Positions 2,734 through 48,625 of a stretch of 64,000 nucleotides of DNA are shown one piece after another. Under the pieces are notes generated by a model. It was not told the DNA's origin, ran no database searches, and saw only the letters and a list, made by a program, of their open reading frames with translations. Position 1 is the stretch's first letter; each line of letters starts with the position of its first letter. This DNA is from Paenibacillus aceti (GTDB lineage Bacteria; Bacillota; Bacilli; Paenibacillales; Paenibacillaceae). Location of the stretch: positions 1,711,346-1,775,345 of the forward strand of contig NZ_KZ987724.1 of the NCBI RefSeq assembly GCF_003614185.1, given 5' to 3'. The translations under genes and the position numbers were made by a program.

Positions 2734-2820
2734 GTCTGATTCTCCTTTGTAGCGGTAGTTCACTCTACTTTATAGTTTATTGGAAATAGAGATGAAAATC
2801 CATTACAGCCTGTTCATATT

Positions 2821-5116: not shown

Positions 5117-5131
5117 AGCTGTAGTCACAAG

Positions 5132-5187: not shown

Positions 5188-5259
5188 ATTTTCGCTGCCG
5201 CTTCTGCTAAGTTAGGATAAATATGATAGTAGCGTCAGGTGTAAGAAGGAGTGATAGAG

Positions 5260-6039: not shown

Positions 6040-6138
6040 CCTCGTAGCTGGCATGTATTTACGAACAGTCTCGCGATCTGCTCAGACTGTTGAGCAGCCT
6101 GCTACGAACGTCGAGGGGTTGATCATTGTTCTATTGTT

Positions 6139-6322
6139 CTAACGAAACACAGAACGTTATTGGCTTCAAAACAAGGGCTCTGCGAATCTAACGAAACTCC
6201 ATAGCGCTATTTGAGCTAAAAGACAGCTTTCAGCAGCTATTTTAGCGATATAACGTTACCCTGTTTCGTTACATTTTCCGCAGGCCCTTTTGGGTCTGAA
6301 TAGCGTTACCACGTTTCGTTAG
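6139..6322. repeat. TAACGAAAC cluster A (forward-forward-reverse-reverse)
   Basis: Four copies of a ~24-bp motif: two forward (CTAACGAAAC...CGTTATT at 6139-6162; CTAACGAAACTCC...GCTATT at 6188-6213) and two inverted (ending GTTTCGTTA at about 6250-6271 and 6299-6322). The inverted pair could fold back on the forward pair. The same family recurs at 9455-9638 and 34258-34339. From 6323 to 6487 nothing else is recognisable. Confidence 0.8.
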
Positions 6323-6487
6323 AGCTCGCTTGTGATCCTATATAGCACAAATCCCCGTCTCCAACCTGCATTTGCCCCATGACAACTAGTTCCTTCTATC
6401 TGCTTTCTACCCTCACTCGACCTATAATAGTAGAATAATACATATTTGCACAACACGCCCGGTTTATCAACCTATATCCGACCTGCC

Positions 6488-6680
6488 ATAGCAAATTCCT
6501 GCGTTTATGCAGGAATTTCACCTCCGTTCCAGTCTGGAATGATAAATTCCTGCAATAATGCAGGAATTCTCTCCAGATTGGCTTGATTCGAAGGAAAATG
6601 GAGGAAAATCCTGCACTTTTTGCAGGAATTGGTGTAGAATAGGTGACTTTAGGCGATAAAGCCTGCATATTTGCAGTTTT
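6488..6680. repeat. Four-hairpin CCTGC/GCAGG repeat, copy 1
   Basis: Four short palindromes: 6493-6518 (perfect 10-bp arms around GTTTAT), 6545-6568 (9-bp arms around AATAAT), 6606-6630 and 6663-6676. The spacers resemble those of copy 2 at 23792-23980 (for example TTGATTCGAAGGAAAATGG against CTGATTCGATAGGAAAAG). Weak similarity to the copy 2 flank continues to about 6860. The hairpins create open frames encoding CKYAGF-like peptides on the minus strand; these are not taken as genes. 6681-6901 shows nothing else. Confidence 0.85.
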
Positions 6681-6901
6681 CGTTGCGTGCCGGGTAGGAG
6701 TTGGTGCGAGAGTCATTACTAGTTTCGTGGATGTAAGATCTGGCCGCCAGTTGCAAGGCCATATTCTCACACCGCACGTAGTACACAGTAAGCAGCACGC
6801 AGTAAGCAACTCCCAGCGCGGTGTTTCGCCGTATGACAGGGGCCACGGTCGACCATAATGCGACTGAGTGCTCCAACCGTCATAGACTGAGCAGACCACC
6901 G

Positions 6902-9295: not shown

Positions 9296-9342
9296 ATTTC
9301 AAGCGCCCCTCTTTCCTAGCATTGCAGTTTTACAAGTTTCAC

Positions 9343-9375
9343 AGATAAAAAGGGCCGCGCTCCGCGCAGCCCTGT
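9343..9375 (-). terminator. Rho-independent terminator-like hairpin
   Basis: On the minus strand GGGCTGCGC, loop GGA, GCGCGGCCC, then TTTTTAT. It lies about 285 nt beyond the gltD stop, with repeat cluster B between, and just before topB, so it should separate the two transcripts. Confidence 0.7.
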
Positions 9376-9454
9376 AGCTAACTCATATTATAACATATTT
9401 TCACTCGTCCTCGTAAGTGCGTCGTATTTCTCAGGACAGATCGTCCCTCTCCGC

Positions 9455-9638
9455 CTAACGAAACTACTAATCGTTATTTCATCAAAAACAACGCTATTTC
9501 AAATCTAACGAAACTCCATATCGTTATTTGAGCGAAATCCCCCCATAACACCCCAAATCAGCTGCAATAGCGATACCCAGTTTCGTTAAAATCTACAGAA
9601 GTCCATTTGCCCCTAAATAACGATACCACGTTTCGTTA
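9455..9638. repeat. TAACGAAAC cluster B (forward-forward-reverse-reverse)
   Basis: Same architecture as cluster A: forward copies at 9455-9479 and 9505-9530 (CTAACGAAACTCCATATC), inverted copies at about 9565-9588 and 9614-9638 (ACGATACCACGTTTCGTTAG). Located in the gltD-topB gap (9296-9657), which otherwise holds only the terminator hairpin. Confidence 0.82.
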
Positions 9639-9657
9639 GCGCTTAAAGCGATTAAAA

Positions 9658-11148
9658 TCAAGGAAGCAGCGAGCTTCCCGTCAACAAATACTTATCGACT
9701 TCTCTGGCGGCATCGCGGCCCTCCTGAATCGCCCAGACGACCAGGCTCTGACCCCGGCGCATGTCACCGGCGGTGAATACTTTGTCAACACTAGTGCTAT
9801 ATTGGCCGTAGCGCGCTTTGACATTGCTGCGTCGGTCCGTCTCTAGCCCCAACTCATCGATTAGCGTCGCCTCCGGGCCATCAAACCCGATGGCGATCAG
9901 CGCCAGCTGAGCCGGGAATACCCGCTCCGTTCCGGGAACAGGCTCATAGCTTTTGCGGCCTGCTGCATCCACCGAACGCTGGATCTGGACCGTATGCAGC
10001 TCTTGCAGATTCCCCTGCTCATCACCGACGAACCTTGTCGTCATGATCGAGAACTCCCGTGGATCATGACCATACAGCGCTTTGGCTTCCTGCTGAGCAT
10101 AATCAAGCGTGTAGACATTCGGGAATTGCGGCCACGGATTGACTAGCGAATCGCGCTCCAGCGGAGCCTTGGCATGGGTGCCAAATTGCGTAATGCTACG
10201 GCAGCCGTGACGCAGCGCAGTAGCGACACAGTCCGAGCCGGTATCACCGCCGCCGATCACGATCACATCCTTACCTGCCGCTGAAATATATTGCCCATCC
10301 CGCAGCCCCGAATCCAGATAGCTCTTGATCGTGCCGTTCAGATAAGGCATCGCATAATGCACTCCCTGCAAATGACTGCCTTCAATCTCGAACTGACGCG
10401 GCTTGGTCGCCCCGCCGCACAGAACGACGGCATCATATTGCTCGACCAGCTGCTGCGCCATGATATCCTTACCGATCTCCGTACTCGTTACGAACTTCAC
10501 GCCTTCTGCCGCGAGCAAATCAACACGGCGCTGCACGACCGCTTTATCCAGCTTCATCGTCGGAATCCCGTACATCAGCAGACCGCCGATCCGATCCGAG
10601 CGCTCATACACGGTAACTTCATGTCCCGCCTTATTCAATTGCGCTGCACAGGCGAGCCCGGCCGGGCCAGAGCCGACAACAGCAACTCTACGGCCTGTGC
10701 GCCGCGCAGGCGGCTCCGGGACGATCCAGCCCTCGTCGAAGCCCCTGTCAACGATCGCTTGCTCGATCGTCTTGATCGTCACCGGCTGGCCGATGAGGCC
10801 CACCGTACAAGAGCCCTCGCAAGGAGCCGGACAGACTCGTCCGGTGAACTCCGGGAAATTATTCGTTCTGTGCAAGCGGTCCAGCGCTTCTCTCCATAAG
10901 CCGCGGTAGACGAGATGATTCCATTCGGGGATCAAGTTATGAAGCGGACAGCCCGACGTGCCCCCACTCATCTCCATCCCTGTATGACAATAAGGAGTTC
11001 CGCAATCCATACAACGGGCTCCCTGCCTCTGCAATTCCTGATCCGTCAAGTGCTTGTGGAACTCCTGCCAGTCCTGCACCCGCTCCAGCGGACTGCGATC
11101 TCCTGGTAGCTGACGGGTAAACTCCATAAATCCAGTTGGTGTAGACAT
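9658..11148 (-). CDS. gltD: Glutamate synthase, small (NADPH) subunit
   Basis: 496-aa FAD/iron-sulfur subunit that passes electrons from NADPH to the large GOGAT subunit to make glutamate. Near the N-terminus two cysteine clusters fit [4Fe-4S] ligation (CMDCGTPYCHTG and CPAPCEGSC). A FAD dinucleotide fold follows (VAVVGSGPAGLACA), then the NADPH fold (VIVIGGGDTGSDC) and a terminal FAD contact (VFTAGDMRRGQSLVVWAI). Start at ATG 11148 after GGGGGAAA; an in-frame codon at 11181 lacks a site. The large subunit gltB, usually adjacent, is not in this window, so gltD may be separate here or act with another partner. Confidence 0.93.
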   Translation of the reverse strand: MSTPTGFMEFTRQLPGDRSPLERVQDWQEFHKHLTDQELQRQGARCMDCGTPYCHTGMEMSGGTSGCPLHNLIPEWNHLVYRGLWREALDRLHRTNNFPEFTGRVCPAPCEGSCTVGLIGQPVTIKTIEQAIVDRGFDEGWIVPEPPARRTGRRVAVVGSGPAGLACAAQLNKAGHEVTVYERSDRIGGLLMYGIPTMKLDKAVVQRRVDLLAAEGVKFVTSTEIGKDIMAQQLVEQYDAVVLCGGATKPRQFEIEGSHLQGVHYAMPYLNGTIKSYLDSGLRDGQYISAAGKDVIVIGGGDTGSDCVATALRHGCRSITQFGTHAKAPLERDSLVNPWPQFPNVYTLDYAQQEAKALYGHDPREFSIMTTRFVGDEQGNLQELHTVQIQRSVDAAGRKSYEPVPGTERVFPAQLALIAIGFDGPEATLIDELGLETDRRSNVKARYGQYSTSVDKVFTAGDMRRGQSLVVWAIQEGRDAAREVDKYLLTGSSLLP

Positions 11149-11183
11149 TTTATTTCCCCCATCCGTTGCCAACAAGAGCATTC

Positions 11184-11207
11184 AAGCCGGATCGGCTGAT
11201 CCGGCTT
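11184..11207. other. Perfect 10-bp inverted repeat upstream of gltD
   Basis: AAGCCGGATC, loop GGCT, GATCCGGCTT, about 36 bp upstream of the gltD ATG. It lacks a U-run in either direction, so it is either an operator or a 5' UTR hairpin of the gltD mRNA. Confidence 0.55.
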
Positions 11208-11324
11208 GTCTATGCGGTGCATATCCACAATGCGACCGCTTAGCGAACCCTCCCGTTTTTGTGTAACTTGATGTTAGCACTCCGGGGGAACGTTATTAAT
11301 GGATTTATAAATTGATATTTTGTA

Positions 11325-11825
11325 CTATTCTGCACTCGGATGTTGTCTTACATAGGTCATAAACCGATAGTGATAAGGGTTCTTCTCATCACGAATCCCT
11401 TCCGTCTCCTGCTCCAGCCGGAACTGGCTCCAGTCGATCTCCGGGAAGTACGTATCCCCTTCGATCTCCTCATCGATCTTCGTGACATGCAGGCGGTCCG
11501 CATAAGGAATCAGCAGCTTATAGATCCCGGCTCCGCCGATTACCATCAATTCCTCGCCAGCCGCAAGAGCTAATACTTGCTCCTCCGAGTGCACCACTTC
11601 CGCGCCCTCAGCATGATACCCGCGATCATTCGTCATGACGATATTGCGGCGATTAGGCAGCGGACGACTGCGCATGGACTCCCAGGTTTTACGGCCCATT
11701 AGCACGGTCTTTCCGGTCGTCTGCGCTTTGAAGAAGGCCATATCCGCCGGCAGGCGCCAAGGCAGATCATTGTTGCGGCCGATCACTCCGTTCCTGGCCA
11801 TGGCCCAAATGAATGTCATTCCCAT
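11325..11825 (-). CDS. folA: Dihydrofolate reductase
   Basis: 166-aa NADPH-dependent enzyme reducing dihydrofolate to tetrahydrofolate. Visible landmarks: FIWAMARNGVIGRNNDLPW at the start, the acidic-site region LPADMAFFK, the NADPH motif VLMGRKTWESM, and VIGGAGIY. Length is normal. GGAG lies 7 nt before ATG 11825. It is 74 bp downstream of thyA on the same strand; ThyA makes the dihydrofolate that FolA recycles, and thyA-folA is a classic operon. Confidence 0.96.
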   Translation of the reverse strand: MGMTFIWAMARNGVIGRNNDLPWRLPADMAFFKAQTTGKTVLMGRKTWESMRSRPLPNRRNIVMTNDRGYHAEGAEVVHSEEQVLALAAGEELMVIGGAGIYKLLIPYADRLHVTKIDEEIEGDTYFPEIDWSQFRLEQETEGIRDEKNPYHYRFMTYVRQHPSAE

Positions 11826-11899
11826 AGAGCTTCTCCACCTTCCTGGAATTCGTTAGTTATCTTTTCGCTCCTAAGACTAGTCTGTTATTCTGCCCAATT

Positions 11900-12694
11900 T
11901 CATATCGCTACAGGGGCTTTAATTCCAGGGTGATGCTGGTATCCGACGAACTCGAAATCGTCATAGACATAATCGAAGATCGAATCCGGCTTGCGCTTGA
12001 TCACAAGCTGCGGCAAAGGATATGGCTCCCGCTGCAATTGCGTATTCACTTGCTCCAGATGATTCTTGTATATATGCACATCCCCACCGGACCAGATGAA
12101 CTCACCAACCTCAAGACCGCATTGCTGGGCTACCATATGAGTCAACAGAGCGTAGCTGGCGATATTGAACGGCAGACCAAGGAAGGTATCGACCGATCGC
12201 ATCGTCAGCATGCAGGACAGCTTCCCGTCAGCCACATAGAACTGGAATACGAAATGGCAAGGCGGCAGCTTCATCTCATCAATCTCCGCTACATTCCACG
12301 CGCTGACCAGATGCCGACGTGAATCCGGATTATTCTTGATCGAGTCAATCACTCTCGAAATCTGATCGATCCTTCTCCCATCCGGCGTTGGCCAGGAACG
12401 CCATTGCGAGCCGTATACAGGACCTAAATCCCCGTTCTCATCCGCCCATTCATCCCAAATCGTAACTCCATTTTCCTTCAAGTATTTTATATTAGTGTCC
12501 CCTCTCAGGAACCAGAGCAGCTCGTGAATCACCGACTTCAGGTGAATACGCTTAGTCGTCATCAGCGGGAAGCCTTCACTCAGATCAAAACGCAATTGTC
12601 TGCCGAATACCGAATAGGTGCCTGTGCCTGTCCGGTCTTCTTTCTCTGTTCCATGGTCCAATACATCCTGCAATAAGTTCAAATAGTTCTTCAT
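11900..12694 (-). CDS. thyA: Thymidylate synthase
   Basis: 264-aa enzyme that methylates dUMP to dTMP using methylenetetrahydrofolate. The catalytic cysteine is in [12 protein letters not shown] near residue 146. Other family motifs: [11 protein letters not shown] at the N-terminus, [28 protein letters not shown], and the C-terminal PVAI that closes over the active site. Length and ends match ThyA exactly. First gene of the thyA-folA pair. Confidence 0.97.
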
Positions 12695-37198: not shown

Positions 37199-37948
37199 AT
37201 GGATACAAAAAGAGTAGCAGTTATTACAGGTAGTGCAAGCGGGATTGGTAAATCAACCGCTTTCAAATTTGCCGCCGAAGGTGATCGCGTCGTCGTTGCC
37301 GATTTCAATGAACAAGCCGGACAAGCTGTAGTCGATGAGATCAAAACAAAAGGCGGAGAAGCTATTTTCGTTAAAACAGATGTTTCGAAGTTCGAAGATG
37401 TTGAGGCATTGGTCGAGAAGGCTGTGAAAACTTATGGCAGAATCGATGTTATGTTCAACAACGCCGGGATCGGCCGCCTGACCCCTGTACTGGATCAAAA
37501 GCTGGAAGATTACCATGCCGTAATCAATGTCAACCAGCATGGCGTGCTGCACGGAATTATCGCCGCAGGCAAGAAAATGAGAGAACTGGGTACACATGGC
37601 GTAATTATTAATACCGCCTCCGTATTCGGTTTCCTCGCTTCGCCAGGAACCTTCGCTTATCATGCCAGCAAGGGCGCTGTCATCATGATGACCAAATCCG
37701 CAGCTCTGGAGCTCGCTCCTCATGGCATCCGCGTAGTTGCCGTAGCTCCGGGCGCTGTTGATACGCCGATCATTCAAGGCTATAAGGATCAAGGCTTGAC
37801 CGATGCGATGAAATCCAAGGTAATGGGCAATAAACTAACTCAACCTGAGCAAATCGCCGACACGGTATACCTTCTGTCCACGCCGGACGCAAGCGCTATC
37901 AACGGCAGCGTCGTCATGGCTGATGAAGGATATGCTTCTTTTAAATAA
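37199..37948 (+). CDS. SDR-family oxidoreductase
   Basis: 249-aa short-chain dehydrogenase. Cofactor motif TGSASGIG at 10-17, NNAGIG near 89, the catalytic Ser in NTASVFG and YxxxK in YHASKGAV. D37-like acidic residue after the second strand (VADFNEQ) favours NAD over NADP. AAAGGTGGAG precedes the ATG. Substrate unknown. Divergent from a LysR gene, followed by a shared terminator. Confidence 0.92.
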   Translation: MDTKRVAVITGSASGIGKSTAFKFAAEGDRVVVADFNEQAGQAVVDEIKTKGGEAIFVKTDVSKFEDVEALVEKAVKTYGRIDVMFNNAGIGRLTPVLDQKLEDYHAVINVNQHGVLHGIIAAGKKMRELGTHGVIINTASVFGFLASPGTFAYHASKGAVIMMTKSAALELAPHGIRVVAVAPGAVDTPIIQGYKDQGLTDAMKSKVMGNKLTQPEQIADTVYLLSTPDASAINGSVVMADEGYASFK

Positions 37949-37966
37949 ACATAACATACAAAACAA

Positions 37967-37999
37967 ACAGGCGCACTCTTACTCAAGAGTAGCGCCTGC
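37967..37999. terminator. Terminator between SDR gene and Tad-like operon
   Basis: AGGCGCACTCTT, loop ACTC, AAGAGTAGCGCCT (one bulge). On the minus strand it is followed by GTTTGTTTTG; thus it can end both convergent units. Confidence 0.8.
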
Positions 38000-38004
38000 T
38001 TCTA

Positions 38005-38985
38005 TTACAGCTCACATCTCGCCTCAAAATATCCCCGGGCCGCCGCTTCCCGCTTGCTGGAGAAGATCTCTTCCCTCCTGTAGGGCAGCTTGCATTCTGC
38101 GTAGTAGTAATACTTGATGTTCGTCACTGGATCGACTCCTCCTGTAATCATCTTCTGCCTCGTTAACCGCCCTCCGCCAAGAGCGAAGTTATTATAATAA
38201 CGGCTGCCGACCGGAATACCTTGCAGAAACACGATTATTCCTACATCATCCAGTGTATTATTCCATTCTTCCTGAGAGATTGTCGGTAAAGTAAAGGTAT
38301 AAGTATAACCCAGTCTGGCGGTATGTTCATTATGTAATGCGATCACCTGCTCCAGTTCATCTTCAATCTGATGCACGATGACAGACCGTCTGATCTGCTC
38401 GAAGACTTCTGCATCTTGCAGCAGCGGAATCGGAACCTGTGAGCTAATATCTGCAAATAAGCCGCGAACTTCCTCTCCGCTAGAAGGAGAGATCACCCGG
38501 ATCATCTGATCGAGCGTAAAAGCGACGCTATTCCCCGCCGCATCCACATAAACATAAGGCTTCTTCGGCCGCCAATGATGCTTCAGGCTGGGTTCACCAT
38601 CCGAGCTTACCCCTTCATCCAGGGCATAGACCCAATAACCGTCATAATCAATGACTACAATCGCAGGAATATAATTAAATAAAGTTTCCATAGCCAACGG
38701 ATCATCGGCAATGCCGAAGTTTAGCGACAGCGTATGCCGCAATACCTCTAACGCCAGTTCCTTATCGGCCCGCATATATTTGTCAGAGCCGTAGCCCGTC
38801 TCGAACTGCTGCAATTCATTTCGACTCAGTACGCTGGCTGTATCCTGTACGGCTGTACGCAGCGCTGTGGTATAACGGATCTGCAGCCGATTAACTTCCT
38901 GAAGATCCGCAGCATATAGAGCTATGACCCAGAGCAGCGGCCCGGCGATCAGTACAAAAACGACAGCCCAGTCAGTGATCTTCAT
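38005..38985 (-). CDS. Membrane-anchored protein of the Tad-like locus
   Basis: 326 aa: one N-terminal membrane helix (about 7-27), then an extracellular part with mixed alpha/beta content and many aromatics. I do not recognise a family. The single anchor followed by a large outside domain fits a minor pseudopilin or assembly protein. It overlaps the previous gene by 14 bp and is the last of ten genes in this operon, followed by a terminator. Confidence 0.7.
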   Translation of the reverse strand: MKITDWAVVFVLIAGPLLWVIALYAADLQEVNRLQIRYTTALRTAVQDTASVLSRNELQQFETGYGSDKYMRADKELALEVLRHTLSLNFGIADDPLAMETLFNYIPAIVVIDYDGYWVYALDEGVSSDGEPSLKHHWRPKKPYVYVDAAGNSVAFTLDQMIRVISPSSGEEVRGLFADISSQVPIPLLQDAEVFEQIRRSVIVHQIEDELEQVIALHNEHTARLGYTYTFTLPTISQEEWNNTLDDVGIIVFLQGIPVGSRYYNNFALGGGRLTRQKMITGGVDPVTNIKYYYYAECKLPYRREEIFSSKREAAARGYFEARCEL

Positions 38986-39538
38986 TCAGTACCATCCCTC
39001 CGTAAAGCAGCACTTGCTGGCTCCGTCCCAGCGCAGAACCGGCATATAGGAACCCGGACAATATCTCATATGGAGTAACCGAACGCCTTGTTAATGAGAC
39101 TGAGAAGAAATCACCCGTTTCGAGCTTGTACAGTCTGTCTGCACTCTGCTGTACACCGTCAGATTCAGGCACGGAGTCAGGGAATAATCGGCTTAACAGA
39201 TCCGAAGTATAGTAGGAATCATACACGACACTGAAGCGATCCTGAAAGGAAGTACTGTCAGCCGGGTCTCTGTATTCAGGGTGGTATTTCTTGTACCTGT
39301 GCTCCAGCTCCACCTCATAGATTCGCCCGGAGACAGCCAAGTCACGCATGAAGTCCTCATACATACCCGCAGATAAGTACCCCTTATTCCGCACCGCATC
39401 CGTGAACTGGACCATCGTATTGTATGCTGCAAGCACCGCAATATCCTCTTCCCGCTCAGCGGCCTGCACTGCCGGAAATAGCAGCAGCAGAGCCACTGCC
39501 AGCAACGCCGCCATAATTTTGGATAGCGGATTACTCAT
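38972..39538 (-). CDS. Secreted/pseudopilin-like protein of the Tad-like locus
   Basis: 188 aa. Residues 8-26 are hydrophobic and end in AVQAAE, so it is either a Sec-secreted protein or a signal-anchored minor pilin. No family recognised. It sits 13 bp after the 132-aa gene and overlaps the 326-aa gene by 14 bp, indicating tight coupling. Confidence 0.7.
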   Translation of the reverse strand: MSNPLSKIMAALLAVALLLLFPAVQAAEREEDIAVLAAYNTMVQFTDAVRNKGYLSAGMYEDFMRDLAVSGRIYEVELEHRYKKYHPEYRDPADSTSFQDRFSVVYDSYYTSDLLSRLFPDSVPESDGVQQSADRLYKLETGDFFSVSLTRRSVTPYEILSGFLYAGSALGRSQQVLLYGGMVLNEDH

Positions 39539-39551
39539 GCATCAACGCCCC

Positions 39552-39950
39552 CTATAGGCTGTAAAATGAGAGACTGCGCAGTTGTCCCCTATCATCATAA
39601 CCTCGATCACAGGAGTAACTACGATCCAGGTGGATCAAAGTATGCAGCAAGGTTTGTGAATCATCCGTATCTGTAATCTGAACCTGATCGACCTGGAGCG
39701 CCACCCCTTGATCAAACCAGGCCTGAAGACTGTATAAAATCTGCACACCTGAATAGATGTCTAGGGTCGGATTTACTTGATTCGCCCAAACCCGGGTATG
39801 GACACTGGCCTTCTGATTCTGAATGAATGGTACCATCCCCTCCAATACCAGCATCTGCCTTGTATTGTAATCCAGCGTGAAGATTAGAGCGCTCATGCAC
39901 AGAGTCAAAGCACCCAGCAGCCATATCATTTCCTTAAGCGTCCGGAGCAT
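39552..39950 (-). CDS. Small membrane-anchored protein of the Tad-like locus
   Basis: 132 aa with an N-terminal hydrophobic helix (about 8-26) and an extracytoplasmic remainder. Its start shares one base with the stop of the gene before (TGATG). Size and layout suggest a pseudopilin or TadE/F-like protein; there is no recognisable motif, so this is positional inference. Confidence 0.7.
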   Translation of the reverse strand: MLRTLKEMIWLLGALTLCMSALIFTLDYNTRQMLVLEGMVPFIQNQKASVHTRVWANQVNPTLDIYSGVQILYSLQAWFDQGVALQVDQVQITDTDDSQTLLHTLIHLDRSYSCDRGYDDRGQLRSLSFYSL

Positions 39951-40435
39951 CAGGAATTTACGGCCGTCTGCGTGAAGATTAACCCGCGCACGACATTGGA
40001 ATTATCCTTAATTACTCTGGCCTTGAACTTCCCGCTCGGATTCACATATTCATTCAGACTCTCATTCCATGAACTACTGATATCTGCCAAGCTTCGGTTG
40101 ATGACGGAGCCGAAATCATCCGAATTGCCGCTGATATTCAAGATACTGCCATACCATTCGCCCTGATGATTCTTCCCGGTGATCACTTGTATACCGAACT
40201 GGTCCCGGTCCTTAAATTTGCGCAGCGCATTCGTCACTTGAGAACCGCTGACAGTCGTATCATCATACACCGTGAAGGATGCCTGTGACAGTTCGGTCTG
40301 AATGTCAGAGAAATTGTTCTGCGCGGTCTTCGTCGCCTCCTGGGCCGAGACGAACAGGACAACCACAATCGTGATCAAGGCGATGGTCAGAAATATACCT
40401 GCTGCTACTTTTAATGCAGATGAAGCGTTATTCAT
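39950..40435 (-). CDS. Pilin-like protein of the Tad-like locus
   Basis: 161 aa. The ATG at 40435 has GGAGG 8 nt upstream. A long hydrophobic helix (about 9-31) follows a short polar start (NNASSALKVAAG), then a Gln/Asn/Ser-rich helix (AQEATKTAQNNFSDIQTELSQ) and a globular domain: a type IV-pilin-like plan, though no clear prepilin-peptidase site (G followed by F/M/E) is visible. It is directly after the TadBC gene and is the best candidate for a major or minor pilin. Confidence 0.7.
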   Translation of the reverse strand: MNNASSALKVAAGIFLTIALITIVVVLFVSAQEATKTAQNNFSDIQTELSQASFTVYDDTTVSGSQVTNALRKFKDRDQFGIQVITGKNHQGEWYGSILNISGNSDDFGSVINRSLADISSSWNESLNEYVNPSGKFKARVIKDNSNVVRGLIFTQTAVNS

Positions 40436-40455
40436 ATTTACTTCCTCCTTCAACC

Positions 40456-42552
40456 CTATAAATTTTGAATTTGCTGAAAATACACATCCATTTGCTTGAA
40501 GCTCATCCAGATCAGCGGAATAACCAAGTAAGCAAAAATTAAGGAGTACATGGGCAAAAAGCCGATCATCCGTCCCAGCTCCGCCTTCATATCCAAATCC
40601 TTCTCATAATCAAGCCGTCTGCGCTCAAAATGGAACCCCATCTCGCTCTGCAAATCATCAAATGCTTTTCGAACCGCGATCTTCTCCTCCGCTTGAATCA
40701 GATGCTCAACCAAACGTTGGAACTCCTCCAGCGCAATCTCATTCCTTAATCCGTGCAGCGCTGCCTCCGCTCCCGCATCATAATGAGCCAGACATTTCTC
40801 AAGCGGCACCTTGAAAATAACAGCATAGCTATACAGCCATTCCAAAATAACTTCCACGGAGATTCGCTCAAAATCCCGCAAAATCAAAATCATCGTCTGA
40901 AACTGATATACTTCATGTCTCATATCTGTCAGGCGTAATCTGCGCTGAAATTGCAGTGTCCATAGCGGGCCGTAATACCCTGCTATTGCAATTAAGAGAG
41001 CCAGCAGGAGCTCCCACCATTTCCAATACTCCGTTTGATAACGCTCCAGCTTGTCCATAATGCGTTGGATCGTTGCGGCCTGCTCTTTATTAAGCTCTAT
41101 TCCTAGATCTTGTGCTGTGGTAGCTATGCTTGCCGCAACCGTAGCCTGATCTGTACTCGCTGACATCCCTGCGCTGCGTAGAACCTGACGATCAAGCTCC
41201 GCCATCTCGCGCGCAGCATCCTTCTCCTCCTTCGAGAGAGTACCGAGAAATACGTAGCTCGCCGGAGGCTCCGCTATAATCCAGACCTTGCTCTTCCAAT
41301 GTGCCCAGGTGATTGCAGATACCGCGATGAGAAGACAGCCAAGGAATAGCGCTAATCGCCTGACCTGGAGTAATTCGACCCGCAGCATCTGGTTCGTCTG
41401 CTTGAGCAATTCAGCCAGATGGTCATAACGAAGCGTGCCCGGAGCGGGGCTGAACCAGCTAACGGCCGCTCGCACCACTTTCCAGCGGTAAGCCTTCGCC
41501 TCCCAAATTGCTTTTTCCGTACTAGCCCGATAAGCAGTAGCCTCCTCACTTCTTAATTTCTGCAGCAGAATATAGCTGAGCAGAATAATAATGAACAGAG
41601 TAATATGAATAGCAATTCCGAGCTTGCTCAAATAGAAGCGATCCATCAACGGAAAATTACTGCGCGCCCAAAGTTCAATCGGCTTGGTGAAGAAGATAGG
41701 TATGAGCGCGATCAAGCTTAGGCCTTTGAGCAAATAATCAAGCTTGTTCCTGCGGATCAGTTCGAGCTGGATCTCCTCAGCCAGACTGGATATCCCTCGC
41801 AAATATAGCGAACCCGCCTGCTCATCCTTGCGATCACCATATTCCATAATCAGTCTGGAGATCGCGGCAAATCCTCTGAGAAAACGGTTCGGTGCCGTCT
41901 CATAATACTGATCCAGCTCTTTATCCGGCTCCGCGGAGATAAGAGCTTCATAGATTCGCCCCCCGTGCCGGGCGATTTCCTCACCCGATGTCTCATTCGC
42001 TTCATCTATGGCATCCGCCACCATCTCATGGCTATGATAGGCATGCCTGACGGCCGAGAACCATTGCAGCATTTGCTGCAGCAGCTTCTTCTCCCATCTC
42101 GCTACATAACCTTCCAAGATCAAGTTGTGAATAACGACAACAGTAATGAGCGTAGTTATGAAGAACAATACACTGGGATGTATCAGGGTCAACAAGCTAA
42201 CCGCCAATCCGGAAATGCTCAGCAGCAAATAGACAAGCTGCATAGTCTGCTGTCTTAATATCAATTCATCGGAAGACCGTAGCAAGGCTATCCGGCTGCG
42301 CACCTTGAGTACATACAAGCGTAAAGGCGCGAACTTCATGGCCAGAGCATAGGATCTTAACAGAAGGGATGAACTTGCAGCCTTGAGCCTTGACGCTATA
42401 CCGAGTTCTGCTTCAACGGCCGCTGCACTTATCCCCAGTTTCTCGGCCCGCTTCTCTTCACGTCTGCGAAGCTCCAGCGCGATCAAATATATAGCACCAA
42501 ATGATAAAAATGATATAAGCGCGACCCATAACAAGACCGAATTAAGCTCCAA
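40456..42552 (-). CDS. Fused TadB-TadC inner-membrane platform protein
   Basis: 698 aa. The start is TTG 42552, with GGGGGAGCGG just upstream inside the end of the ATPase gene; upstream frame is an artefact of that overlap. Two GspF/TadB-C-like halves are seen, each with an alpha-helical cytoplasmic part between membrane helices: about residues 80-330 (ending ARSNFPLMDRFYLSKL) and about 520-698 (GYYGPLWTLQFQRRLRLTDMRHEV ... LPMYSLIFAYLVIPLIW). In most Tad loci these are two genes, tadB and tadC; here one chain seems to hold both. Confidence 0.75.
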   Translation of the reverse strand: MELNSVLLWVALISFLSFGAIYLIALELRRREEKRAEKLGISAAAVEAELGIASRLKAASSSLLLRSYALAMKFAPLRLYVLKVRSRIALLRSSDELILRQQTMQLVYLLLSISGLAVSLLTLIHPSVLFFITTLITVVVIHNLILEGYVARWEKKLLQQMLQWFSAVRHAYHSHEMVADAIDEANETSGEEIARHGGRIYEALISAEPDKELDQYYETAPNRFLRGFAAISRLIMEYGDRKDEQAGSLYLRGISSLAEEIQLELIRRNKLDYLLKGLSLIALIPIFFTKPIELWARSNFPLMDRFYLSKLGIAIHITLFIIILLSYILLQKLRSEEATAYRASTEKAIWEAKAYRWKVVRAAVSWFSPAPGTLRYDHLAELLKQTNQMLRVELLQVRRLALFLGCLLIAVSAITWAHWKSKVWIIAEPPASYVFLGTLSKEEKDAAREMAELDRQVLRSAGMSASTDQATVAASIATTAQDLGIELNKEQAATIQRIMDKLERYQTEYWKWWELLLALLIAIAGYYGPLWTLQFQRRLRLTDMRHEVYQFQTMILILRDFERISVEVILEWLYSYAVIFKVPLEKCLAHYDAGAEAALHGLRNEIALEEFQRLVEHLIQAEEKIAVRKAFDDLQSEMGFHFERRRLDYEKDLDMKAELGRMIGFLPMYSLIFAYLVIPLIWMSFKQMDVYFQQIQNL

Positions 42553-44425
42553 CCCGCTCCCCCCAATACTGCGACAGAAATTGCTCGAAGCGATCCGCAT
42601 CCTCCGGGAGCATCTCACGCTGCATCTCCTTGCGACAGCGCTCCGTAATCGGCTGAACAGGCCGGTATTCACCATCTACATACTCAATGATTGTTCTTTC
42701 CTGATAGGTTCGCTCCCATAGATGTCTATTAAGAGCAACAGCTGTATTATAGGTATCTGTAAACTCGCTGCTACCCCGCGCAATCTCATGATCAATACGC
42801 TGGCAGCACTGGGTAATCCGTTCAATATACCGATGCCCATGTATGTCTCTACGCAAATGGATGTCAAAATCGATAACCCCCGCCACCTGCAACTCAGCGA
42901 CCCGTTCATCCCGGAACACACCCGTTTTCAGCAAAGAGTTGCGCAATGAATCTACCAGATCAGGGAACGTCTTGGCATGATGCGTAAACACGGTAAATAG
43001 ACTGGCCACTTGCGCCATTTGAATCATCCAGGATGCTACCTCATCTGTAGCAACCTCGCCCAGAATATGCACAGTCCCATCCGTCTTCTTCTGCAGATCA
43101 AGCCCGGCCTGACCGCTCACATACTCCGTCTCCCGGAAACTGAGTATATTTCTCGCGTTATACAGCTTCCGCAAATTCAACTCGAAGGACATTTCTTGCA
43201 CACGAAGCGTGTAAGAAGCATAAATATGCTTGACCAGCGCCATTAACAGCGTCGTTTTGCCCGAGCCCTGCGATCCGGTGATAGAGGTAATGCGGCTGCC
43301 CTTCATCAAATACTTCAGCAATTGTATGGGAAGCTCGGCCCGGCCGCCCTGGATTAACTGTTCAAGTGCAGCCCCGCGGGTATCGAATTTGCGGACGAAA
43401 AAGGCCCATGACTCAGCGAAGGGCGGACGCACTACGACGACCCGCGAGCCATCCTTCATATCGTTTACCTTATAACCGCTCGCCTCAGACAATTGCCCCG
43501 GCAAATTGTACTTGTAAATATTTTGACAAATCCGCTTGAGCTCGAATTCACTGCCGAAGGATAGGAAGGGGAGCCTGATGCTCTTACCTTTATAAAATAT
43601 CCAGACACTCTCCCAGACCTGAGAAAAATCGCGGCCATCTTCATCCACATTCGCTTCAATCCCATTCATATAACTGTAATCGCTCGGTGAATTATCCAAC
43701 TGGGCGGATGCCGAAATTCCGCTCACTCCGCCGCTTACCCCATCGATCCGCTGCTCCATGATACTGTCGATCACCGAAAAACCCTTATAGGATTGGTACA
43801 CACGCTGCACAATAATATCCAGCTTCTCTTCGAAGCTCAACTGCCTATATTCCCGGCCGAAGCAATAATCGATATCTTCACCGCTAATTTCATACATATA
43901 GCTGCCCTCTTCATCTGTGGACGGCTTCGGTTCATCCAGTTCATAGTCCTCGATCAGAGCGGATAGTGCCTCATCGCCATACCTTTGGCGGTACAAGTAG
44001 AATACAATTTCAAAGCGATCCTGACAGGTTAGCCTGACAGGCTGCTGAAACGGAATGATCCGTTCCATCCTGTCCTCTGTCAATTTATAGCCATCTATCA
44101 GCAAATCGCGGATATAGGCTTGAACGAAGCGCTTATCCTGGCGATCTCCCAGGGAGCAGCCCCGCAAAGCCTGACGCAGCTCCGTCCTCGCTTTCACTTT
44201 ACGGTTCCAGGCTTCCTCGCTCATTCCCCATTGATTGATCTTGTTGCGGCTCAGCTCATGCAGCTGAAATTTCACATACTCAATGAGATCCGGCAAGCTG
44301 TATGGCTCATGGGCCGTCCCCTTCCCTGATTTATCACTCGAAACTGCTCTAGCCCTAAGCCATACGAGAAGAAGCGCCAGCAGCGAGATCAAGGCAATAC
44401 CGATGCCATTCGCAACTCTTTCCAT
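42542..44425 (-). CDS. TadA/CpaF-type secretion ATPase
   Basis: 627-aa hexameric ATPase driving pilus assembly or secretion. A membrane helix (about 8-25) and a roughly 300-residue extension precede the motor. Walker A is TGSQGSGKTTLL near 390; an Asp-box-like FRETEYVSG, a Walker-B-like VHILGEVATDEV, and a His box (FTHHAKT) follow in the order of this family. Walker B has GEVATDE where CpaF usually has GEVRGxE. Starts 2 nt after the TadZ-like gene and overlaps the next. Confidence 0.88.
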   Translation of the reverse strand: MERVANGIGIALISLLALLLVWLRARAVSSDKSGKGTAHEPYSLPDLIEYVKFQLHELSRNKINQWGMSEEAWNRKVKARTELRQALRGCSLGDRQDKRFVQAYIRDLLIDGYKLTEDRMERIIPFQQPVRLTCQDRFEIVFYLYRQRYGDEALSALIEDYELDEPKPSTDEEGSYMYEISGEDIDYCFGREYRQLSFEEKLDIIVQRVYQSYKGFSVIDSIMEQRIDGVSGGVSGISASAQLDNSPSDYSYMNGIEANVDEDGRDFSQVWESVWIFYKGKSIRLPFLSFGSEFELKRICQNIYKYNLPGQLSEASGYKVNDMKDGSRVVVVRPPFAESWAFFVRKFDTRGAALEQLIQGGRAELPIQLLKYLMKGSRITSITGSQGSGKTTLLMALVKHIYASYTLRVQEMSFELNLRKLYNARNILSFRETEYVSGQAGLDLQKKTDGTVHILGEVATDEVASWMIQMAQVASLFTVFTHHAKTFPDLVDSLRNSLLKTGVFRDERVAELQVAGVIDFDIHLRRDIHGHRYIERITQCCQRIDHEIARGSSEFTDTYNTAVALNRHLWERTYQERTIIEYVDGEYRPVQPITERCRKEMQREMLPEDADRFEQFLSQYWGERVGA

Positions 44426-44427
44426 CG

Positions 44428-45258
44428 CTACGCCCCCTTGTCATTGGACGGAGATCGCGAGACCGTGTACTTGCCACATAATTTAATTACTCCTTCAGCA
44501 AGCTCCTGCAGCGCCTCCAACAGCGTCCCTCGCTTCGTCCCCGTTCGGCCAGGTAGCTGGATCCTTCGGAAATAGCGGAGCAGATCGCGCTCATTCCACG
44601 CATCTGCGAACCCGGTCTCATAACAGATGCCATAGATCGGGAGATCGCAATCATAATATCGTCTGATATTGGCTATATTCCACTTGGCCTGCCGATCATA
44701 GTTACGGAGAACGATGCCGCTAACCCGATTCGCAGAATTCTGGAGAGATGATCTATATAATTCAAAAAAATGATCAAGCTCCGTCCGATTCTGATGCAAC
44801 ACCGGAAATAACAGCTCCGGCTCCAACTCTTCATTCGGTATGAATCTGCCGCTTCGATGCAGTAGCACGAGCTCATAGGAATCCTCAGCAATCGCGTATA
44901 GCTGCTGCAGCAGCATTTCATCCACCTGCTTGTCCATCCCTCCTCTGGCACCAGCCACCAGATCAAGGCGGCCATTAATCAGTGGTCTCGTATAATCTGC
45001 AAAATTGTGGCGCGATAGACGCCGATTATGGAGCAAGCGAAGTAAAGCCTCGGTTCCTGTCTCGGCTACCATCTTGCCATCGCCTGCAGCAGCAATATGA
45101 TCTTGCGCCGGGAAGCCTTGCTCTACCCCATATCCAGCCTCCGCTTCATTAACCAGCAAGATATGCTGCCTATGATAGAGTGCTACAGCTATAGCCACTG
45201 CTGCTGCAATCCCTTCCGCACCGCCATGACCGAAATCCCAAAATACGATTCGACTCAT
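44428..45258 (-). CDS. TadZ/CpaE-like protein without P-loop
   Basis: 276 aa. The beginning (RIVFWDFGHGGAEGIAAAVAIAVAL) has the MinD/ParA strand-loop-helix layout but no lysine in the loop, so ATP binding is doubtful. The rest keeps a Rossmann-like order with VSGIVLRNYD and DLPIYGICYE, like MinD's late strands. TadZ proteins position Tad machines at the pole, and many have such degenerate loops. ATGA overlap with the previous gene. Confidence 0.65.
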   Translation of the reverse strand: MSRIVFWDFGHGGAEGIAAAVAIAVALYHRQHILLVNEAEAGYGVEQGFPAQDHIAAAGDGKMVAETGTEALLRLLHNRRLSRHNFADYTRPLINGRLDLVAGARGGMDKQVDEMLLQQLYAIAEDSYELVLLHRSGRFIPNEELEPELLFPVLHQNRTELDHFFELYRSSLQNSANRVSGIVLRNYDRQAKWNIANIRRYYDCDLPIYGICYETGFADAWNERDLLRYFRRIQLPGRTGTKRGTLLEALQELAEGVIKLCGKYTVSRSPSNDKGA

Positions 45259-45974
45259 AGGTCCCTCCTTTGCGCACTGCGCAGCGCCCTCTTCGCTTCG
45301 CCTCTCGTCCAGCCAGCTAATTGGACGAGCAGTGACACCAGCGCTCTTTTGTAAGAACGAGTGACTTTATGTATGGCAAGTGTATGCTCATGCCCATTCT
45401 CGAAATGAACGGCTGCATCGATCTCATTCCAGGGAATACAGGTTACCTCTGCCTCCCAATGAATCGGTAAATCCTCTACAATGCTCATCATGTAATCAGC
45501 GGTCAAATAGCTCTCCACCGTTCTTACCAGAACGGGTTCAATGCTGATCTCTCCTAGCTCAGGGTCGGCTTGAAGTAATTGTCTGAACCAGGCCGCACTT
45601 CGTTCCACCTCATAGTGATCAAAGGTCGTCACCCATATGAAACGATCGATTTGTGGCCACAGCCACGCTCTAACCGGCAGCTCCGGCTCGAAGTCATACA
45701 GCACATAATCATAGCCGCTATGCTGTTCAGCCTCCGGCTGCCCCTTGAATGTCTCCGCTTCCCCCACCACTTCCGGTAAACCGGCCGATATATCAAAGCC
45801 GCAGAATTCAATCAACGGCAAATCGCCCGTGCTATTGCGAGCGAGATATTGATACTTCCTTCCGGCTGTTCCGTCTATGAGCAGGACGCGATGTCCCGCA
45901 GCGGCGAGCAGTCTGCAAATATAGAGAATTAGCTCTCGCTTATCGCTCACCCCGGCGAATAGCCAACGTTGCAT
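45255..45974 (-). CDS. Second MinD-like protein without Walker A
   Basis: 239 aa from ATG 45974 (GGAGGGGG upstream); a longer frame to 46052 lacks a site. The N-terminus RWLFAGVSDKRELILYICRLLAAAGHRVLLIDGTAG matches the MinD start with the P-loop lost but the LLIDG strand retained. Middle: YDYVLYDFEPELPVRAW, parallel to the switch II strand. Probably a structural partner of the TadZ-like protein. Confidence 0.65.
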   Translation of the reverse strand: MQRWLFAGVSDKRELILYICRLLAAAGHRVLLIDGTAGRKYQYLARNSTGDLPLIEFCGFDISAGLPEVVGEAETFKGQPEAEQHSGYDYVLYDFEPELPVRAWLWPQIDRFIWVTTFDHYEVERSAAWFRQLLQADPELGEISIEPVLVRTVESYLTADYMMSIVEDLPIHWEAEVTCIPWNEIDAAVHFENGHEHTLAIHKVTRSYKRALVSLLVQLAGWTRGEAKRALRSAQRRDL

Positions 45975-46023
45975 CTGATCCCCCTCCATTTCAGCTGGCT
46001 CCAGCGAGCCAGTTCTCAAAATG

Positions 46024-46923
46024 TCACTCTCCCTGCGCCCCATCAAATACAAATGAATCGGTTGTTGACTGAGCAGGTTGAGCAGCCTTCATACCGGACT
46101 TACCGCCGACAAATTCAGCAGCTCGCTGTGGAGATACCGCCGCCAAATCCCCCTCTAGTCCCGCTCTTAACGAAGAGGTCAATGCATGCTCGGCCTTTTC
46201 CACAATATTCGGGTCCTTGCGAATCACCTGTAGAACAGCATCGCTAGGCGGATAAGTCGGGATGGCCTCGCGCTGCAAAAAGGGTTCTACGTATTTAAGG
46301 GCATAAATCGAAGCCTTATGTAAATAAGCGTCTACAATCCCGCTTGAGAGCAGCAAGATCTCCGCTTCATCCAAGGTTGCCGTGATTACTCCCGGAGATA
46401 ATGACTCGATCCGCTTCTTGGAGAGCAGGATATAGTCCTGCCCTGTCGGGAATTGAATCCGCACATCCACAACGTCCTTTGCCTTCAGTTCACCCGGCAA
46501 TTGAATGAAGCCCATTTCCCGGTAACGCAGATCATCCGGCACAGCCCCTTCCTCGTACAACAACGACTCGGTAATGATCGTGTTGGGGGAAACTGTAATC
46601 TTTACAGCCTTGCCAACGATCTGCTCAGAAGCTCTGATCCAATTGTCAGGCACATGGTTGACCGCCATTGTAACCGATGCGAGATCCTGCCTTGTAATCC
46701 GTTCTCCGGCAGTCTTCTCCCGGGCCAGGGTCCATCCCGCAACAAGATCTTCGGAAGCCTGATTGAGCATGGATATCTCGGCTTCATATTGCTGCTTCAA
46801 TGAAGCTCGAACCTCCTGTAAATGCTTGGATGCATGTACGGCATAGCCGGCGAATAAAATGCCGATAATGCCCGCCCCTACCATTCCGGCATAGAGAAAT
46901 TGCCTGGTTCGTCTTCTGAACAT
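46024..46923 (-). CDS. CpaB-like SAF-domain protein
   Basis: 299 aa with one membrane helix (about 11-28), a coiled segment, then a SAF-like region (LAREKTAGERITRQDLASVTMA ... AVKITVSPNTIITESLLY, about 65-125) as in CpaB/RcpC assembly proteins. A C-terminal tail rich in Ala/Gln/Ser is poorly conserved-looking. Start at ATG 46923 after GAGGTG. In Gram-positive Tad loci CpaB probably works at the membrane face. Confidence 0.75.
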   Translation of the reverse strand: MFRRRTRQFLYAGMVGAGIIGILFAGYAVHASKHLQEVRASLKQQYEAEISMLNQASEDLVAGWTLAREKTAGERITRQDLASVTMAVNHVPDNWIRASEQIVGKAVKITVSPNTIITESLLYEEGAVPDDLRYREMGFIQLPGELKAKDVVDVRIQFPTGQDYILLSKKRIESLSPGVITATLDEAEILLLSSGIVDAYLHKASIYALKYVEPFLQREAIPTYPPSDAVLQVIRKDPNIVEKAEHALTSSLRAGLEGDLAAVSPQRAAEFVGGKSGMKAAQPAQSTTDSFVFDGAQGE

Positions 46924-46946
46924 GTACACACCTCACTTCCTCTCAT

Positions 46947-48458
46947 TCATTTCCTGCCTGAGAGCCAGAACCCGCGCTTCAGCGGACGCAGCACTTGAGG
47001 CAGCACCTCACTGCATACCTGCAATAACGCCATTTCGATCGCTTGCCCGGGGGAGAAGGGATTGCTCTCAGCCGGCAAAGCATACACCTGCTTCGTCCCC
47101 AGCCTCCTCTGCAGCCTGCCGATATCTGCGGCAGAAGCGAGCGGGAGACAATAAATCGGCGGTCGCTTGCTCTGCCCCAATGTCTCTGCAGCGAACATCT
47201 CCAGCTCATCGATCTTCCACACGGTTGCCGAACCGACTAATATCGCCAGGTCAGCTCTGACGAATTCCTCCAGCAGATCCTTACGCTTGCCCGCGCCAAG
47301 ATCACAAATCATATAAGTGTAGTTCTCGGCGAACAAATCAAGCAGTTCAACCCGCGAGCTGGTTCTAATATAGTCGACCCCCTCGATCCGGTTGCGCTGA
47401 TAATGCGATGACTTGGCTGGCCTGCTCCCTAGCTCCAGCCTATGAAAAATTCGTTCGAATGCAGTTGCCCGTGGATCCAGCTCCAACACAGCCACTCTTC
47501 GCGAATATCTAACCAAGGAATGGGCCATCGCTATCGCCGCATGCGTCGTACCCACTCCCGGGCCTGCACCCATCAATGCGATCACAATCGAGCGCCCGGG
47601 AACGAATATGCCTCCCTCTTCGGCCCGGTCTCTATCCTTAGATTTAACACTCCCAAGCGACCGCTGCTCAATCAACTTGGCCAGTACAGTCCCAGCCTCC
47701 TGCGCGGATTGAAACCTATCTTCAGGGCTGCTCCTCAACAACCTCTCAATTACAGGACCGAGGAGCGAGAAGCCCTTCTTGTCTAGCCACTGCTTGGCCT
47801 CGGTCGTATACTCTGTATATTGGAATTTCGTAGCCAAATATAATAACACCGCGCCAAGGGAGTACAAATCTGCACGTCCATCACTCTGACGTCCGCCATA
47901 CTGCTCAGGCGCCGCAAACCCGATCGTTCCCAGCTTCACGGTATCATCATCCCTATCGAACTTGAATTTTCTAGCGACACCAAAGTCTACTAGCCGGATC
48001 TCACCCTTAGTATCGATCAGCAGATTGGATGGCTTCAAATCGCGATGGATAATCGGCGGTTGCCGTGTATGCAAATAGTGCAGCCCTTCACAGATCTGTA
48101 CCCCCATCCCGATCAGCATCTCCGGCTTCAAGCTCCGTCCAAGCTGGCGAACATATTGATCCAGATGAATCCCCTCGATGTAATCCATGACAAGATAGGA
48201 GCAGCCCTCCGAGGACCAGTAATCCACAATGCGCGGCAGGCGATGGTGATTCATCGCAATAAGCAGCGCCGCTTCCTCCTCCAATTGTGCCTCTAATGGG
48301 GCACTTGCTGTCGTCACTTTGACCGCCCATCGTTTGCCTGGAAGCTTCATATCGGCGGCCAGATAGACATAGCTCATCCCGCCCCGCCCAATCAAGCGTT
48401 CGATCCGATACCGCCCCGCGATCACCTCTCCTTGAGTCAGCACTGCGATATGCGGCAA
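46947..48458 (-). CDS. Ser/Thr protein kinase fused to CpaE/MinD-like domain
   Basis: 503 aa, TTG start 48458 after AAAGGAGGG (7 nt). Residues 12-265: Hanks-type kinase with the glycine loop IGRGGMSYVY (23-32), K47 of AVKV, HRDLKPSN (138-145), DFG (158-160) and APEQ (184-187), so it should be active. Residues 290-490: MinD/CpaE-like domain with a deviant Walker A GAGPGVGTTH (297-306), lacking the lysine. No membrane helix or PASTA sensor. As first gene of the Tad-like operon it may control the machine by phosphorylation. I know of no named family with this fusion. Confidence 0.88.
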   Translation of the reverse strand: MPHIAVLTQGEVIAGRYRIERLIGRGGMSYVYLAADMKLPGKRWAVKVTTASAPLEAQLEEEAALLIAMNHHRLPRIVDYWSSEGCSYLVMDYIEGIHLDQYVRQLGRSLKPEMLIGMGVQICEGLHYLHTRQPPIIHRDLKPSNLLIDTKGEIRLVDFGVARKFKFDRDDDTVKLGTIGFAAPEQYGGRQSDGRADLYSLGAVLLYLATKFQYTEYTTEAKQWLDKKGFSLLGPVIERLLRSSPEDRFQSAQEAGTVLAKLIEQRSLGSVKSKDRDRAEEGGIFVPGRSIVIALMGAGPGVGTTHAAIAMAHSLVRYSRRVAVLELDPRATAFERIFHRLELGSRPAKSSHYQRNRIEGVDYIRTSSRVELLDLFAENYTYMICDLGAGKRKDLLEEFVRADLAILVGSATVWKIDELEMFAAETLGQSKRPPIYCLPLASAADIGRLQRRLGTKQVYALPAESNPFSPGQAIEMALLQVCSEVLPQVLRPLKRGFWLSGRK

Positions 48459-48540: not shown

Positions 48541-48625
48541 TGGTTGTTTTGTATAATTTTGGAATCAGTATACCATATTTCAGCAGAATGTAAAGCTATA
48601 TTTTCTAAAAATATAATTCATTCCG

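Follow-up and report, generated by a model that had tools for sequence, protein, structure and literature searches.

We analyzed a 64,000-nucleotide stretch of the Paenibacillus aceti genome (contig NZ_KZ987724.1, positions 1,711,346 to 1,775,345; here called the window) that holds a ten-gene cluster headed by a Ser/Thr kinase fused to a CpaE/MinD-like domain. A first reading made from the sequence alone had taken this cluster for a variant Tad/Flp-type machine. We agree: the motor, platform, CpaB, and CpaE parts are homologous to those of Tad systems, and by this homology the cluster is a divergent Tad-type machine. Going further, we give about an even chance to the reading that the machine builds a plasmid-derived contact filament, of which one chromosomal lineage came under kinase control, and that it acts together with DUF5704 (PF18964), a giant secreted protein family.

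Layout and conservation of the cluster

Ten open reading frames (ORFs), packed tightly or overlapping, fill positions 38005-48458 of the window on the minus strand. All ten ORFs of the sequence-only reading were recovered in the order that it gave, as was its TTG start for the kinase gene. From first to last, the features are as follows.

46947..48458, minus strand: Ser/Thr kinase joined in one ORF to a CpaE/MinD-like domain; the ORF stays open as far as GTG 48497, and TTG 48458 is the likely start
46024..46923, minus strand: CpaB/RcpC-like SAF protein with one N-terminal membrane helix (TIGR03177 and SAF HMM matches)
45255..45974, minus strand: MIN1, degenerate MinD-like protein 1; start (MQRWLF) inferred from homologues
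44428..45258, minus strand: MIN2, degenerate MinD-like protein 2 (23-row alignment, ParA-family profile match)
42542..44425, minus strand: CpaF/TadA-type ATPase with a membrane helix at the N-terminus and a further conserved N-terminal region (profile matches)
40456..42552, minus strand: fused double platform, matching TadB/TadC in both halves; probably starts at a TTG that overlaps the ATPase stop
39950..40435, minus strand: S1, candidate for the main filament subunit; true start at ATG 40435
39552..39950, minus strand: S2, S1 paralogue by hhalign, minor subunit candidate
38972..39538, minus strand: S3, small exported or anchored protein with a conserved C-terminus (18-row alignment)
38005..38985, minus strand: S4, single N-terminal anchor and a conserved outer domain of ~290 residues (homologue alignment)
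37946..38004, minus strand: likely intrinsic terminator hairpin behind S4 (fold -24.6 kcal/mol, then a T-rich tail)
48567..48594, minus strand: promoter-like site upstream of the kinase gene, TTTACA-16-TATACT with an extended -10 (10/12 consensus matches)

The TTG at 48458 is preceded by GGAGG. The overlap of the ATPase stop with the platform start, together with the other touching pairs, suggests that the ten genes form a single translationally coupled operon. The promoter-like site is weak evidence because the region holds 18 such sites where 12.4 +/- 3.9 are expected. The terminator hairpin is missing from the consensus-scan list of sites.

We searched 118 related genomes with the ATPase and found a match at E<1e-100 in 67; the remaining 51 had none better than 4e-16. 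All 41 genomes of the window's genus were among the 67, 40 of them with at least 59% ATPase identity. A phylum-wide draw of 398 genomes yielded the ATPase in 5 (E<=1e-60), all from the same family and including the window's own. A contig scan of 84,980 species returned 251 stretches with a relative. The loci that we read are the best 80 of these 251 and are therefore biased toward close Paenibacillus. The kinase was present in 74 of the 80 (the kinase-type loci), and its profile had no match in the 6 kinase-less contig loci.

Using a crude ORF caller, in which some ORFs were masked by longer ORFs on the opposite strand, we found kinase+MinD, SAF, MIN1, MIN2, ATPase, platform, S1, S3, and S4 in this order in 63/74 kinase-type loci. 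S2, whose sequence is too variable, was not required in this count, and unlabelled ORFs were ignored. Such recurrence argues that the cluster did not arise by chance. The sequence-only reading had staked its proposal on gene order being conserved in relatives, and it is. The same neighbours also recurred: FPG and HAD in 74/74 kinase-type loci, NFO in 73/74, and an SAM-methyltransferase in 72/74. Thus, the kinase-type cluster occupies a single fixed chromosomal site in the Paenibacillus group.

Two loci deserve separate mention. The record for plasmid pHD02 from Paenibacillus sp. IHB B 3084 (L041) has a kinase-type locus with the usual chromosomal neighbours and may be a misassigned piece of chromosome. 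In Paenibacillus sp. D2_2 (L053), SAF, ATPase, and platform are each split in two ORFs, perhaps through sequencing errors or decay.

Relationship to Tad systems

The cluster has in common with the Tad/Flp (type IVc) pilus of Caulobacter (Cpa) and Aggregatibacter (Tad) a CpaF/TadA ATPase, a TadB plus TadC platform pair, a CpaB/RcpC SAF protein, and a CpaE/TadZ-type MinD protein. Unlike in those systems, the platform halves here are fused, two extra degenerate MinD proteins are present, the CpaE-like protein carries a kinase, and DUF5704 is a partner. Also unlike in those systems, the locus has no match to a Flp pilin with a class III site, a TadV-type prepilin peptidase, or an RcpA secretin. 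Since these three features are missing from the locus, we treat the cluster as a variant and do not file it as a Tad pilus proper.

The ATPase matched TadA TIGR03819 at 1.3e-9 in the NCBIfam scan, below the curated cut-off. Its ten-row profile matched the solved CpaF chains 8rkd/9e24 at about 1e-13 and CpaF profiles from its own and related genomes at 1e-20, and the Walker A GKT/S was retained in all ten rows. For the platform, no convincing Pfam match was found in any of 24 members. Columns 37-375 (3e-9) and 546-728 (8e-8) of its alignment matched TadB/TadC profiles, while S4 and SAF were negative as controls in the same comparison. Because the profile matches TadB/TadC twice, we describe the platform protein, on profile evidence, as a fusion of two TadB/TadC-like halves. 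The SAF protein matched CpaB TIGR03177 at 4.5e-8 (below the curated cut-off) and SAF at 2e-4 in HMM scans, and its gene was present in 74/74 kinase-type loci; hhalign gave no significant match between it and the SAF proteins of its own genome.

Pfam and NCBIfam scans gave no convincing family match for MIN1, MIN2, the platform, or S1-S4. The identity of MIN1 as a degenerate MinD-like protein rests on its own 21-row alignment, with invariant D60, D87, Y114, and D120, and on a weak profile link to MIN2 (3e-4). MIN2 appears weakly ParA-like: the profile from its 23-row alignment matched the ParA-family chain 3ea0 at 7e-4. Among the parts named at the outset, the kinase-MinD, CpaF, and CpaB assignments stood; the platform proved to be double, S1 and S2 to be paralogues, and S1 to be a pilin candidate.

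We also considered that the machine takes up DNA for natural transformation, as the tad clusters of Micrococcus luteus, which are described as essential for that process (PMC8467076). As would fit, FPG and NFO beside the chromosomal cluster serve in DNA repair. However, the ATPase is closer to TadA than to ComGA (1e-9 versus only 2e-4, both under the cut-off) and so does not class as ComGA-type, and HMM scans recognised no competence protein among the other nine locus proteins. Other neighbours are not DNA genes (in L041, annotated thioredoxin and ABC genes), and DNA uptake leaves the DUF5704 partner unexplained. We regard it as most improbable.

Relatives on plasmids

Among 72,556 plasmid records, 24 matched. 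We read 11 of these stretches and excluded pHD02, as chromosomal kinase-type, leaving 10. The nine core genes were in the same order on 10/10 stretches from several Firmicutes genera. HMM labels covered all nine in 8/10; MIN1 was unlabelled in L176, and S3 was masked by an opposite ORF in L177. The kinase profile had no match in the 10 plasmid stretches (positive controls, the window and L052, 1e-130). The gene before SAF held a MinD match in 7/10. In six of these the match lay in the C-terminal half; in the seventh, L042 (pTHECO01; 4570-9191), the CpaE-like gene is broken up, and genes annotated as AAA-ATPase and DDE transposase lie between its pieces.

Several of these plasmids carry conjugation-type genes. 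On pCY360, the order is cell wall hydrolase, SAF to S4, cold-shock gene, VirD4, two genes, PrgI, and VirB4, and both VirD4 and VirB4 exceed their NCBIfam cut-offs. pTHECO01 has a VirB4-like ATPase (TcpF model, 5e-146, below cut-off), TcpC, TcpE, an EF1877-type membrane protein, and a coupling protein. Since pTHECO01 has VirB4/TcpC/TcpE-type genes of its own, DNA there is unlikely to pass through the Tad-like machine. A 174-kb Lysinibacillus plasmid (L045) carries both the cluster and TubZ. From the shared TubZ we read it as a pBsph-type plasmid, by analogy to the Lysinibacillus sphaericus plasmids of that type; a pBsph-like TubZ plasmid is reported to transfer, and the words “pilus” and “tad” are absent from the main text of that report (PMC13239906). 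The plasmids carrying relatives are probably conjugative. Surface adhesins are described on Gram-positive conjugative plasmids, one of them needed for efficient conjugation (PMC7726212, PMC8092201).

An unlikely alternative is that the machine makes a standard Tad pilus for adhesion in surface life and that its plasmid homologues are passengers unrelated to mating. Tad loci are described as often moving horizontally (PMC6668835). In addition, a tad locus occurs with conjugation genes (VirB4/TcpC-type) on a plasmid of Cutibacterium acnes, and the account of it leaves the link unproven and the role in transfer unclear (PMC5696575). That plasmid resembles ours in combining Tad with VirB4/TcpC-type genes in a Gram-positive host; it differs in being actinobacterial, and its description mentions no DUF5704 or kinase. 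Against passengers, the pCY360 cluster continues into the VirD4, PrgI, and VirB4 genes, and on six other plasmids the cluster is near coupling or relaxase-like genes.

Close to more than one of the plasmid clusters lie proteins with a ribosomal protein S1 or S1 RNA-binding domain annotation (L178 9101-9949, L180 1-490, and L175 10770-12038). GGDEF/diguanylate cyclase genes follow DUF5704 in L042, L043, L044, and L178, with an HD phosphohydrolase too in L042 and L178, hinting at cyclic-di-nucleotide control on plasmids.

The kinase fusion and its origin

The fusion protein matched Pkinase at 6e-38 and gave a weak MinD/CpaE (CbiA) signal in HMM scans. As first noticed in the window, kinase and MinD part are one protein, and this held for a single ORF in 73/74 kinase-type loci; L103 has two adjacent ORFs. 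The VAIK Lys, the alpha-C Glu, the RD Asp, the following Lys, the Asn, DFG, and APE were invariant in 72/72 homologues, and the first letter of HRD varied (Y, H, or F). With its catalytic residues invariant, the kinase part should be active. In the MinD part, the P-loop GxxxGxGxTH was mostly kept, with the His in 68 of 72 homologues, and the Lys was absent. Lacking this lysine, the MinD part of the fusion is atypical in sequence; TadZ proteins are likewise described as atypical (PMC6668835).

The MinD part matched the CpaE of a second Tad locus in the same genome (L008; hhalign, 3e-13) and, in profile comparison, the C-terminal half of the CpaE-like protein from three plasmid relatives (3e-37). 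There was no significant hhalign match to the CpaE of a further own-genome locus, L007. The N-terminus of the plasmid CpaE looks receiver-like by eye, and the full-length plasmid protein has a significant match to the L008 CpaE that spans the N-terminus. Our favoured reading of these comparisons is that the kinase replaced the original N-terminus of a CpaE-like positioning protein.

From 113 ATPase sequences we built two trees, one of 69 and one of 44 rows, after thinning the set by identity. The 44-row tree omits L007, L008, and two Butyrivibrio rows owing to long branches. In it, the kinase rows formed one clade with support 100/100, present in 100% of 200 bootstrap trees, whereas the plasmid rows required four changes and surrounded the kinase clade when the tree was rooted on other CpaF. 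A single gain of the kinase fits this tree best, and the plasmid forms likely came first, with the chromosomal lineage derived from them.

We infer that phosphorylation probably controls assembly of the machine by setting where or when it takes place. The kinase could instead target unrelated proteins and merely share transcript and scaffold with the machine: HMM scans of the fusion protein found no sensor domain, and our analysis identified no target. We consider this quite unlikely, given that the in-frame fusion to a CpaE-like protein stands at the cluster head in all but one kinase-type locus and that the tree gives the kinase form one origin. Kinase-bearing type VII secretion clusters also encode a Ser/Thr kinase with an envelope machine; there, as described, the kinases are separate and several have a membrane helix, in contrast to the fusion here (PMC11217815). 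The kinase lineage amounts to a natural experiment on a CpaE-type positioning protein whose customary N-terminal part has given way to a kinase.

The small proteins and a candidate filament subunit

Over 19 rows, mean column majority in S1 was 0.92 for residues 1-60 and 0.53 for residues 91-128. A near-invariant N-terminal helix with a variable remainder is what one would expect if S1 were a subunit with its helix buried and one face exposed. In the structure predicted for S1, a helix at 2-51 is followed by six strands (pLDDT 75.5, pTM 0.58), and this layout of a long N-terminal helix and beta strands is compatible with that of a type IV pilin. On the strength of this pattern and the predicted layout, we propose S1 as a candidate for the main filament subunit. 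S1 genes on two plasmids are annotated “ABC transporter permease,” which is probably a misnomer.

S2 matched S1 by hhalign (94%, 1e-7, over 127 columns) and, by this profile match, is its paralogue. S3 has YGGMVLNEDY in the consensus C-terminus of its 18-row alignment. S4 shares 34-69% identity with 20 homologues, plasmid forms included, and had no convincing Pfam or PDB match.

The class III cleavage motif consists of a G before xxxxE, and the L008 pilin has such a motif. No class III site was found in the window's S2-S4. HMM scans of the ten locus proteins gave no match to a secretin, prepilin peptidase, VirB4, or VirD4. A secretin is not expected in a monoderm, and three Peptidase_A24 prepilin peptidase genes lie elsewhere in the genome. 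The sequence-only reading had stressed the lack of a pilin cleavage site, secretin, and prepilin peptidase. None of these was matched in the ten proteins, as it had said; a plausible subunit, S1, does nevertheless exist. Should S1 assemble with no prepilin processing, a rule of the type IV filament superfamily would be called into question.

Pairing with DUF5704

DUF5704 was found in 65/118 genomes and in 0/14 control genomes. The ATPase (E<1e-100) and DUF5704 occurred together in 64 genomes, the ATPase alone in 3 (G067, G073, and G081), DUF5704 alone in 1 (G074, a 44-position match), and neither in 50. Outside the window's genus, the corresponding counts were 23/3/1/50 (Fisher 2e-15, in a test that ignores shared ancestry). 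Three genera (g5, g25, and g37) hold both kinds of genome, and in these the ATPase and DUF5704 are present or missing together. The partnership between machine and DUF5704 is thus statistically shown to be near-obligate.

At least 28 ATPase copies have DUF5704 inside about 12 kb (tables inspected by eye). On the plasmid stretches, DUF5704 follows the cluster in 8/10, preceded by an SLH or copper-amine-oxidase-N gene in 7 of those 8 and with a small ORF between in L178. The 6 kinase-less contig loci have a stalk-domain gene in 6/6 and DUF5704 in 4/6. In the window's genome, DUF5704 lies 0.8 Mb from the cluster, directly behind an SLH gene, and an SLH or copper-amine-oxidase-N gene adjoins it in 11/12 other same-genus genomes chosen; in L182, its neighbour is a 387-residue protein without a Pfam match. 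In L105 and L120, both kinase-type loci on the chromosome, S4 is immediately followed by SLH and DUF5704, so that these two loci bridge the clustered and separate arrangements. The 10-kb flanks of the other 72 kinase-type loci, some of them truncated where a contig ends, showed no labelled DUF5704.

DUF5704 has a conserved C-terminal region that ends SSxDDFxxxxxH in 10/10 aligned sequences. No solved relative was found at E<=0.1, and among 5.39 million open papers searched, none used the family's name. Our analysis gives the family a testable role.

The pairing also bears on a pseudopilus resembling that of type II secretion, in which S1-S4 would form not a long pilus but a short piston, which moves or releases Sec-exported DUF5704 and the wall-bound partner of DUF5704 across the thick wall. 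The near-obligate pairing, the shared C-terminus, an N-terminus that looks signal-peptide-like by eye, and the absent Flp cleavage site are all in its favour. Nevertheless, the ATPase and platform match Tad models or profiles and GspE was not among the NCBIfam matches of the ATPase. Sec alone would already put DUF5704 outside in a monoderm, and S1 looks, in its variable part, like the exposed surface of a filament. We judge such a piston unlikely.

In the window's genome, tandem short repeats resembling a CRISPR array lie beside the DUF5704-SLH pair (L138; G000:C1:2554000-2572000, about 2589-7400). A Sporosarcina plasmid (L180, 22311-31094) has a 2927-residue SLH protein in place of SLH and DUF5704.

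A proposed contact filament

In the contact-filament reading, the CpaF ATPase would act on the fused TadB-TadC-like platform and drive S1, apparently unprocessed, out through the envelope as the main subunit. S2-S4 would be minor or base parts of the filament, and the CpaB-like SAF protein may form a ring. The filament would work with the wall-anchored SLH or stalk-domain protein and with DUF5704, the putative surface effector of contact. On plasmids, it most likely makes donor-recipient contact and does not carry DNA. On the Paenibacillus chromosome, one derived lineage at a fixed site would have had the N-terminus of its CpaE-like protein swapped once for an active Ser/Thr kinase.

Several results weigh against this reading. 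Just one of the five S1 models was fair (75.5), the other four reaching 43-55. No class III cleavage motif was present in 23 aligned S1 sequences, and single-sequence comparison gave S1-S4 no profile link to the small proteins, Flp/TadE-type or otherwise, that the other Tad loci of the genome encode. Among the 10 plasmid stretches, three (L175-L177) had no MinD-type protein at the kinase position, and DUF5704 was not found in two (L176 and L180). A coupling protein was annotated in only 5/10 (L042, L045, L176, L178, and L180) and a replication-relaxation (relaxase-like) gene in only 6/10 (L042, L044, L045, L178, L179, and L180), and PLSDB typed all 24 matching plasmids as non-mobilizable. The N-terminus of the plasmid CpaE alone gave no significant profile match. 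Finally, the outgroup branch of the ATPase tree is very long, about 4-6 changes per column, which makes the plasmid-to-chromosome direction uncertain.

We put forward a broader proposal more tentatively, at a clearly lower probability. The cluster and its relatives may represent an unnamed Firmicutes family of contact machines, in which plasmids use a Tad-like filament with unprocessed subunits and DUF5704 for donor-recipient contact. Paenibacillus would have taken in one of these as a kinase-switched host function, the kinase replacing the N-terminus of the positioning protein. It would suggest a way for large Firmicutes plasmids, though typed as non-mobilizable, to achieve cell contact.

Other Tad-type loci

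The two other Tad loci of the window's genome have the same ATPase and platform types as the cluster. L008 (G000:C1:5503000-5519000, 5279-12481) is more classical, with a Flp-like pilin (QQG-ASIVE), a CpaE-like protein, separate TadB and TadC where the window has a fused platform, a TadE-like protein, and SAF. Among the matches listed, second CpaF-type matches in related genomes mostly had 27-31% identity to the window ATPase core. L007 (G000:C1:2771000-2787000, 3215-11947) is a further Tad-type locus with a DUF5050 gene downstream, and it matches a published association of Tad loci adjoining type VII system g, with DUF5050 (PMC11217815).

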